This document shows, one piece after another, positions 38,632 to 41,231 of a stretch of 41,231 bases of DNA. The DNA is from Elusimicrobiota bacterium (GTDB lineage Bacteria > Elusimicrobiota > Elusimicrobia > Elusimicrobiales > UBA9959): assembly GCA_016234365.1 (NCBI GenBank), contig JACRER010000045.1:1-41231 (forward strand), written 5' to 3'. Every line of letters starts with the position of its first letter. Positions within the stretch are counted from its first letter, which is position 1. The notes beneath the pieces were generated by a model, which had not been told where the DNA came from, made no database searches, and was given only the letters and a program-made list of their open reading frames with translations. The position numbers and the translations under genes are program-made.

Positions 38632-39930
38632 TTAGAAAGCTATCCCAGCCGTGGCCTGTATGCCGAACTTCGCCTTTGAGAAGGTGTACTCCCTGTCCCC
38701 CGGCCCGAGAAAGGTGTTGACCAGCAGGCCGGCGGAGAAGTCGTTCATGTTCTTGTAGGCGACGCCGGTGGTGAGCATGCCGGAGTCGTCTGCCAGGTTG
38801 CGGATATAGTTGGCGCTGAGCGTCATATCCTCGATGATGAAGCGGGTGACGCTGGTGAAGATAGCGCCGTAGTAGCGCGACAGGTAGTTGGGCTCGTAGA
38901 GGCCGTGGCCCAGCAGGAAATCCCGCTTGCTGCCTGAAGTCACGGGGACTATGGTGCCGGTCGGACCGAGGGCCGCCAGCGGCGAGCCGTAGTTATATAC
39001 GGAATGGTCGCGGAAGACGTTCTGCCGGTAGCCGGTCTGGTTGTAGAAGAACTCGCCGGTAACGGTGAGCCGGTCGTTGTAATTGCCCAGGCGGAAGCCC
39101 TTGGAGAAATTTATGGCGGCCTTCTGGGCCCATTCCGCCCGTTTGCGGACGATGTCGAGCGTGCCCGAGTCGTCCCGCAGGAAACGTGTGTTGTCGCGGC
39201 GGGCCGCGCTGTACTCGCCGGCTATGTCCACGTCGCCCAGGCGCGTGGAGAAGTCGTAGCCGAGAACGGGGCGGCGGTTGCGTTTGGCCCAGCCGGAGAA
39301 GGCCATCTCGGTGCGGCCGGTGAGGAACTCGAACTTGAGCGCCCCGCCCAGGTCGCTGTCGGTGGCGGCGTTGCCGGTGTCCAGGAACCCGTAGATGTTG
39401 TATTCGGCGCCGAAAGGGATGTGCATCTTAAGCCCGTAGGCCCCGTCCCGGTAGCCCAGCCGGCGTACGAAGGTGGCCTTCTCGATATTTATGAGGTCGG
39501 TGGGGTTCCACAGGTAGCAGCGGCCCCACTGCAGCACCTGCTTGCCGCCGCGGAAGTAGACCTTGTTCTTCACGTTGAAATCCAGGAACGCCTCGCGCAG
39601 GGCGGACTTGGTTTCCCGGGTGTCGGAGCGGTAGGTGGTCTCCATGTTGGCGAAGGCTTTTACGCCCTGTTTGAGCCGGGCGTCCAGGAAAAGGTTCCCT
39701 ACCAGGTACGAGGTGAGCGGATTTTTGGAGGAACTGCTGTAGATCACGTCGTTCTCCACCAGCAGCACCTCTCCGGAGAAGGCCACCGACCTCTTATCGG
39801 CCGGGGCCGGGGCCGTGTCCGCCGCCTGGGTAGCCACGTCGGGGCTGGAAAAAAGTTCCGCCTCGTCCACCTGGGCCCCGGACGGCGCGGCGCAAGCCAA
39901 AAACAGGAAAGATAAAAGAATATTCTTCAT
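38632..39930 (-). CDS. Outer-membrane beta-barrel protein (DUF1302/alginate-porin-like)
   Basis: A 432-residue product with signal peptide MKNILLSFLFLACAAPSGA. The mature protein is a run of amphipathic strands with aromatic girdles and Asp/Asn/Gly turns (FMETTYRS-like segments, KVYFRGGKQVLQWGR, YLWNPTDLINI, EYNIYGFLDTGN, LTVTGEFFYNQTGY, MTLSANYIRNL) and ends AGIAF, a typical BAM signal. 'GKQ...WG....NPTD..N' is typical of DUF1302-type outer-membrane proteins, which in many Gram-negatives lie next to a LolA-like lipoprotein-sorting protein and an RND/MMPL transporter. Its ATG overlaps by one base the stop of the Cas9::LolA-like ORF, so the LolA-like C-terminus is the native partner. Confidence 0.85.
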   Translation of the reverse strand: MKNILLSFLFLACAAPSGAQVDEAELFSSPDVATQAADTAPAPADKRSVAFSGEVLLVENDVIYSSSSKNPLTSYLVGNLFLDARLKQGVKAFANMETTYRSDTRETKSALREAFLDFNVKNKVYFRGGKQVLQWGRCYLWNPTDLINIEKATFVRRLGYRDGAYGLKMHIPFGAEYNIYGFLDTGNAATDSDLGGALKFEFLTGRTEMAFSGWAKRNRRPVLGYDFSTRLGDVDIAGEYSAARRDNTRFLRDDSGTLDIVRKRAEWAQKAAINFSKGFRLGNYNDRLTVTGEFFYNQTGYRQNVFRDHSVYNYGSPLAALGPTGTIVPVTSGSKRDFLLGHGLYEPNYLSRYYGAIFTSVTRFIIEDMTLSANYIRNLADDSGMLTTGVAYKNMNDFSAGLLVNTFLGPGDREYTFSKAKFGIQATAGIAF

Positions 39931-40706
39931 TATTTGCTCAGGTTCTCCAGGTAAGCCTTGGTAAAGATCCTGTCTTCCAGCTTGGTCGTGACTATGCTGG
40001 AGAGTTCCACGATGGTCTTGTTGCCTTTCTCGAATTCGTCTATGAACATCTCGCGGGCCGTCCAGCGGGCACGAATACGTTCTTTGACAGGATCAAGTTT
40101 CGAGAAGTGCTCGCCGAGTGTCCGCGCACCGGAGGTCTCCAGTTCTTCACGGAGTCTGCCAATGCCCTTCTTGACCTCTCCCTCCCGATCGTCTTTCTTT
40201 GGCACGGATTTACGATTTGAGAGAAACCCGCGTCGCTGGGCCAGATGGTAGAGTGCGCGGCCCAACTCGTGGATGGAGAGTTCCCGGTCCAATGCCTGGG
40301 CGCGAAGCAGGTAGGGGAGGACATGGGGGTTCGCTTTCCTCGCGGGCTCAGGGAAGATGGTCTTGTCAAGGTCCGCAAAGAACCGGACCCGGGCACCCCC
40401 TGTATTCAGGTCACCCTGAGGCAGTAGTCCGGCCTCCCGAAGGAGACCGGCCAGCCTTTTCAGCCTCCTGGAATGGCGATCGAGCATCCGGCGGCGGAGG
40501 CGCGACTCGCGACGCTTGATTGCCCGGGACGCATCCCGACCGGATTCGATATCGCCCTCAACTCCGGCGTCAAAGACCCGTACTCCTATCCGGACAAGAC
40601 CTTCTGGTTCACCAGTCTCGTTGGCGCTGAGCAATGCCCAGCCAACAGAGTTGGTGCCGATGTCTAGCCCGAGAATGTACTCATTCTGTGATAGCGTTGT
40701 TTGCAC
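39930..40706 (-). CDS. cas9: Chimeric ORF: N-terminal ~226 residues of type II-C-like Cas9 joined to the C-terminus of a LolA-like protein
   Basis: 258 residues from GTG 40706, with AAGGAG 7 bases upstream. Residues 12-23 are the RuvC-I motif (LGLDIGTNSVGW, catalytic Asp15); 57-90 are the Arg-rich bridge helix (RAIKRRESRLRRRMLDRHSR); 145-166 (IHELGRALYHLAQRRGFLSNRK) and 193-225 (GARTLGEHFSKLDP, ERIRARWTAREM) are the start of the REC lobe. Family members (1,000 or more residues) continue with an EFE-IW-type helix and later HNH and RuvC-II/III. Here, after EFEK (about codon 226-227, bases 40026-40031), the sequence becomes GNKTIVELSS...LEDRIFTKAYLENLSK, which matches the end of the LolA-like (outer-membrane lipoprotein-sorting) family: 'KGNKT.(V/L)E.S.....DS.FT.RYLE'. 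Neither half can work alone as Cas9. Fusion, deletion or assembly chimera are all possible. Confidence 0.85.
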   Translation of the reverse strand: MQTTLSQNEYILGLDIGTNSVGWALLSANETGEPEGLVRIGVRVFDAGVEGDIESGRDASRAIKRRESRLRRRMLDRHSRRLKRLAGLLREAGLLPQGDLNTGGARVRFFADLDKTIFPEPARKANPHVLPYLLRAQALDRELSIHELGRALYHLAQRRGFLSNRKSVPKKDDREGEVKKGIGRLREELETSGARTLGEHFSKLDPVKERIRARWTAREMFIDEFEKGNKTIVELSSIVTTKLEDRIFTKAYLENLSK

Positions 40707-40717
40707 GGTGTTTCTCC

Positions 40718-40747
40718 TTGACAGAAGGGGCGGTTTTCAGTTATCCA
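40718..40747 (+). promoter_or_regulatory. Promoter of the candidate tracrRNA
   Basis: Perfect TTGACA (40718-40723), 18-base spacer and TATCCA (40742-40747) on the plus strand, divergent from cas9 and overlapping its ribosome-binding region. The expected transcription start is about 40754, just before the predicted anti-repeat. Confidence 0.5.
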
Positions 40748-40753
40748 AAGGTA

Positions 40754-40860
40754 TACCTGAGCGGCGATTGTCCCGCAAGTTTCAGCAATGGGACTTTCGT
40801 TCCGCAGGCAACGCTCTACGGAGCGCCCTGAACGCCTCCCAGTGAGGCGTTCTCTATTTT
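40754..40860 (+). ncRNA. Candidate tracrRNA of the type II-C CRISPR-Cas9 locus
   Basis: A roughly 107-nt transcript predicted between the TTGACA promoter and a terminator. In order it shows: a putative anti-repeat (about 40762-40789, containing GTCCCGCAAGTTTCAGCAAT); a nexus-type hairpin GGGAC-TTTC-GTTCC (40790-40803); a second hairpin built from GCAGGC...GCGCTC-type arms (CAGG..GAGCG / CGCTC..CCTG, about 40805-40830) containing GCAACGCTCT, a string also found at the same place in the Neisseria tracrRNA as I recall it; and a terminal hairpin plus T-run. Length, architecture and position beside the cas9 start all fit. The matching CRISPR repeat (expected to begin like ATTGCTGAAACTTG) is not in the window, so the anti-repeat cannot be confirmed. 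Confidence 0.6.
40830..40860 (+). terminator. Intrinsic terminator of the candidate tracrRNA
   Basis: GAACGCCTC (40830-40838), loop CCAGT, GAGGCGTTC (40844-40852), then TCTATTTT (40853-40860): a perfect 9-bp stem with a T-rich tail on the plus strand only. Confidence 0.75.
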
Positions 40861-40940
40861 CAGCCTTATCTCCGTAACATGCCGGTGTGACAGATGGGGT
40901 CACAGTCCGCGATGTTTTTTTCACGGTCTGTCGCACGTCC

Positions 40941-41231
40941 ATGGTCGTAGCTTCTGATCCCGCACGATACCATCGCCGCCAAGCTCGAACCGACGCTTTT
41001 TCCGGTTATTCCGTTCAGGATCTTCGTTACATGCGGCAGTTCTATCTGGTGTATCCGGAACTGATGCGTTCGGCCGAGATTCGCCACGCACTGCGTGGCG
41101 AATCCGGTACGCCTATCGGGGCGGGGGATGAGGAGCGGGGCGGCGGGGCGCTACGCGACCTTCTTGAGAGGGGGGACCATTCGATGGCTTCGAAGGGAGT
41201 GCCACAGGTCGAAGTCGCGCTGGAGGTTGAG
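40941..41231 (+). CDS. Possible DUF1016/YhcG-type PDDEXK nuclease fragment, 3' end cut by window edge
   Basis: The frame is open from ATG 40941 to the window end (97 codons). Residues 20-54 read FSGYSVQDLRYMRQFYLVYPEL...IRHALRGES, which resembles the N-terminal DUF1016 segment 'GFS..NLRYMRQFYL.FP...' of YhcG-like proteins, a family often found in defence and mobile regions. The roughly 60 residues that normally precede this segment are not seen; the first 19 residues show no similarity, and residues after 60 are Gly/Glu-rich and do not show the expected LSW(S/T)HYR motif. I therefore suspect a decayed or rearranged copy. A 27-base perfect palindrome (41078-41104) lies inside the IRHALRGE codons. 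No ribosome site is convincing. Confidence 0.35.
   Translation, partial: MVVASDPARYHRRQARTDAFSGYSVQDLRYMRQFYLVYPELMRSAEIRHALRGESGTPIGAGDEERGGGALRDLLERGDHSMASKGVPQVEVALEVE

Follow-up and report, generated by a model that had tools for sequence, protein, structure and literature searches.

A Cas9 N-terminus joined in frame to the end of a LolA-like protein is very likely a chimeric contig end in a draft Elusimicrobiota genome

The stretch of DNA analysed here (the window; 41,231 nt) is the whole of contig C23 (GenBank accession number JACRER010000045.1) of the draft genome G000 from an Elusimicrobiota bacterium (assembly GCA_016234365.1), which consists of 2.72 Mb in 100 contigs and is 96.5% complete. 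The ORF list and translation include a 258 aa ORF with a GTG start and no internal stop on the minus strand (coordinates 40706 to 39930), and its product begins as a Cas9 N-terminus and ends, with the frame kept, as the C-terminal ~38 residues of a LolA-like protein. An earlier reading made from the sequence only had described a one-base TAATG overlap between the lolA-like end of this ORF and the barrel-like ORF that follows (38632–39930), and had placed the cas9/lolA join ~1.2 kb from the end of the window. Both statements were found to be right, and the end of the window is also the end of the contig. The features of the region are listed in Table 1.

Table 1. Features identified around the cas9/lolA join in contig C23
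Feature	Coordinates	Strand	Basis or remark
Barrel-like outer-membrane gene of the lolA operon	38632..39930	-	57–70% identity in 15 congeners
lolA-like gene, 3' end (last ~38 residues)	39930..40048	-	PF17131 match; congener comparison
Junction zone TGTTCATAGACGAATTCGAGAAA (FIDEFEK)	40026..40048	-	Base-by-base comparison
Type II cas9, 5' part, residues 1–226 (RuvC-I, bridge helix, early REC)	40029..40706	-	TIGR01865; relatives
tracrRNA-like element	40750..40862	+	Divergent from cas9; homology with five loci
Frame running off the contig end	40887..41231	+	Weak DUF1016_N match (E 0.0098); belongs to the foreign tail

Residues 10–227 of the ORF product match cas_Csn1 (TIGR01865; E 1.3e-44; positions 1–215 of the 1070 in the profile), and both the N-terminal RuvC-I Asp and the bridge helix are present. 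The intact Cas9 start noted earlier was therefore confirmed, with Asp15 located within ILGLDIGTNS. However, the ORF stops at 258 aa and includes neither HNH nor RuvC-II/III, and a continuation of Cas9 past residue ~226 was not found anywhere in the genome. The relatives of residues 1–226 are mostly from Planctomycetota, and the nearest shares 57% identity. Type II Cas9 proteins of this clade encoded at L031 (WGS accession number JAKLIR010000125.1), L030 and L035 align with residues 1–226 with up to 57% identity, but these relatives are full length (1057 aa in L031, where cas1 follows), whereas the Cas9 in C23 ends after the early REC region. Elsewhere in the phylum, the clade was detected in three of 340 other genomes (E≤1e-20), all in another family and with 50–53% identity. 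It was absent among 31 congeners, in which one match at 8e-4 was to a frame full of stops. The cas1 gene of this clade was not found in G000, whereas the same query identified it in five of five control genomes that carry a Cas9 of the clade. A native Cas9 of the genus was rejected as the source, as only G010 was positive among the 19 congeners scanned with a Cas9 profile, and the sole Cas9 found there (L058; G010:C28) belongs to a different clade.

The tracrRNA-like element located upstream of cas9 includes an anti-repeat (~40750–40785) and a terminator stem (40830–40852), and was found to have a fold z-score of -3.99 with a terminator-like site at its end. It was not reported by an Rfam gathering-threshold search of the window, and its assignment as a tracrRNA beside cas9 is solely by homology with five loci (L030, L031, L033, L034 and L035), in each of which the same element is found upstream of cas9 in the same place and orientation. 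These include the three loci, L031, L030 and L035, that encode the Cas9 relatives aligned above, where the element is likewise divergent from cas9, and the CRISPR repeats of L034 and L035 are similar to the anti-repeat in C23. The kinship of the Cas9 and the placement of the tracrRNA-like element, which is the same as in the five loci, indicate that the tail of C23 is the start of an ordinary type II CRISPR locus, most likely one from another organism. A DNA search for the donor of the tail gave no match in phages and plasmids, no relatives were found among viral contigs, and in searches of genome contigs and of the whole phylum, protein identity across the full length of the Cas9 piece did not exceed 57%. 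The tail is only mildly unusual in its tetranucleotide composition, as ~10% of C23 segments of the same size are equally far off, and its GC content is 59.6% and 57.9%, against 62.1%. A 27-base inverted repeat (41078–41104) lies in the frame that runs off the contig end.

At the other end of the ORF product, residues 209–255 match positions 137–184 of the 184 in the Pfam LolA_like profile (PF17131; E 1.9e-6). The score of 28.1 bits is just below the curated cut-off of 30, and the match is partial, with the remainder of the protein found on another contig, C46. When the LolA-like protein of a sister genome was used to query G000, it matched in two places, residues 1–204 at C46:3–617 (minus strand) and residues 210–254 on C23. 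The front part of the gene is 84% identical to the sister, contains no stops and is cut off by the end of C46 at base 3, and the piece on C23 is 73% identical and also free of stops. The native continuation of lolA is hence located in the same genome, at the end of a different contig. Alignments with G019 and G016 followed C46 down to base 4, then 32 nt, and then C23 from position 40051, indicating that C46 adjoins C23 by gene order and that lolA is split over the two contigs. C46 ends within lolA with no foreign sequence at its tip, and the two contigs do not overlap.

The lolA-like gene of G019 is full length, encoding 255 aa (LolA_like E 5.3e-35), and is preceded by two genes for FtsX-like permeases, and a lolA-like gene was found upstream of the barrel-like gene in the congeners with readable upstream sequence. 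The full-length lolA-like gene in sister genomes, which had been named earlier as evidence against a true fusion protein, is therefore present. The LolA_like proteins of G019, G016 and other congeners correspond to the ORF product over its last ~38 residues, and the barrel-like gene is directly downstream of their genes, but unlike them the ORF lacks the front of the protein, which sits on C46. The barrel-like gene is thus a native neighbour of lolA. A profile search, in which the sister protein was also examined, gave zero Pfam or NCBIfam matches for the barrel-like ORF, and its earlier description as a DUF1302-type barrel is not supported.

The join was compared base by base with 14 sister lolA genes and 15 related cas9 genes. 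The bases of the window agree with Cas9 down to ~40026–40030 and with lolA from ~40048 downwards, so that the DNA shared by the two is at most 23 bases (40048–40026). Identity with lolA starts at approximately the TTC at 40046 (FIDEFEKGNKT), and the GGCAA after the junction zone is found in lolA only. The switch after EFEK proposed in the sequence-only reading was therefore correct in that the sequence is of Cas9 type up to EFEK, but not in that the LolA-type sequence begins at GNKT. The shared stretch proposed there also differs from the one found, which is FIDEFEK. Among the Cas9 relatives, the peptide at this position is MFIDEFDAIW in L035, MYLDEFEKLW in L051 and MYEDEFEKIW in L044. At the same place, the congener lolA reads ...V(P/A)VKQLFIDEFEKGNKT..., and VKQLFIDEFEKGN is the reading in all congeners that have the join stretch. 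Both families thus carry (M/L)-F-I-D-E-F-E-K, or nearly so, and no sister shares an in-register run of more than 13 identical bases with any relative (TCGACGAATTCGA in L006 and L051). As the Cas9 and LolA peptides coincide here in the same frame, the frame is preserved automatically wherever in the shared stretch the join falls, and its preservation is therefore no evidence for a functional fusion.

It is very likely that the two parts were joined through short homology as an artefact of assembly or library preparation, and the earlier proposal that a short shared stretch close to the contig end had led to a misassembly is strongly supported by the finding of the genome's own lolA front at the tip of C46. 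Under this interpretation, the last ~1.2 kb of C23 (~40030–41231) would derive from the type II CRISPR-Cas9 locus of another organism, comprising the tracrRNA and the first 226 codons of cas9, and would have been joined to the lolA-barrel operon at a stretch of no more than 23 bases, FIDEFEK, shared by chance. The native path would run from the lolA 3' end on C23 through ~34 lost bases to C46, and the step that made the join may have been a path in a k-mer graph or a chimeric read. We infer that the join was made during library preparation or assembly and not in a cell. The ORF, although real as sequence, is very probably not a gene. Misassembly that leads to chimeric contigs has been described as a relatively rare error in MAGs (GUNC; PMC8201837), and k-mer graphs may hold paths that are present in no genome (Jorg; PMC8172020). 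As in chimeric MAG contigs of this kind (PMC8201837, PMC8172020), C23 combines two sources that meet at a short shared sequence close to a contig end, and the native continuation is left on a different contig of the bin. However, unlike in other such contigs, the join in C23 keeps the frame by chance, which gives it the appearance of a fusion gene. A chimeric contig end accounts for all of the observations, namely the split lolA, the tip of C46, a foreign cas9 without continuation, the closeness of the join to the contig end and the stretch common to both genes. The lack of overlap between C46 and C23 counts against it, as contigs that break at a simple fork in the graph are expected to overlap.

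It is improbable that a real and recent recombination or insertion, in one strain or part of the population, brought DNA with a truncated cas9 into lolA via microhomology and produced a useless in-frame stub and a broken lolA. The kept frame and the location of the join within a short homologous stretch, of the kind that would also serve illegitimate recombination, are compatible with such an event, as are the presence of the cas9 clade in a small number of other genomes of the phylum and the composition of the tail, which is not strongly alien. However, C46 ends at the same spot in lolA without foreign sequence, whereas a non-repetitive insert should assemble on both sides. In addition, the rest of the CRISPR locus is missing from the bin, and both lolA pieces are undamaged. 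As no donor was matched, the composition differs only mildly, the contigs do not overlap and the join is seen in the assembly alone, a small probability is retained for recombination, and there is only a slight chance that a short-homology event placed a truncated foreign CRISPR-Cas9 locus in the lolA gene of some cells and broke the operon. A functional Cas9-LolA fusion or a regulated Cas9 stub under selection is very improbable, as its sole support is the open frame of 258 codons, and it is absent from the 15 congeners with the barrel-like gene, where lolA is complete wherever upstream sequence is present, and would comprise a Cas9 part without HNH and RuvC-II/III and a LolA part of ~38 residues that lacks the signal peptide and the greater part of the fold. 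The Cas9-LolA fusion protein initially put forward is thus unsupported, given the complete lolA of the congeners and the lolA front on C46.

With the preferred reading of a chimeric contig end, a striking but false fusion gene is removed from consideration. C23 should be cut near 40026–40048 and the tail taken out of the bin, so that the genome is not annotated with Cas9. Searching other contig tips for the half that each partner lacks and comparing gene order in congeners provides a cheap check that requires no reads.

At the other end of C23, an ORF cut by the contig edge (2–295; plus strand) was judged by eye to resemble a YD/RHS-repeat protein, and nowhere in the contig is the composition more unusual than in the first 1.2 kb. 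The start of C23 is possibly a contig break caused by a repeat.
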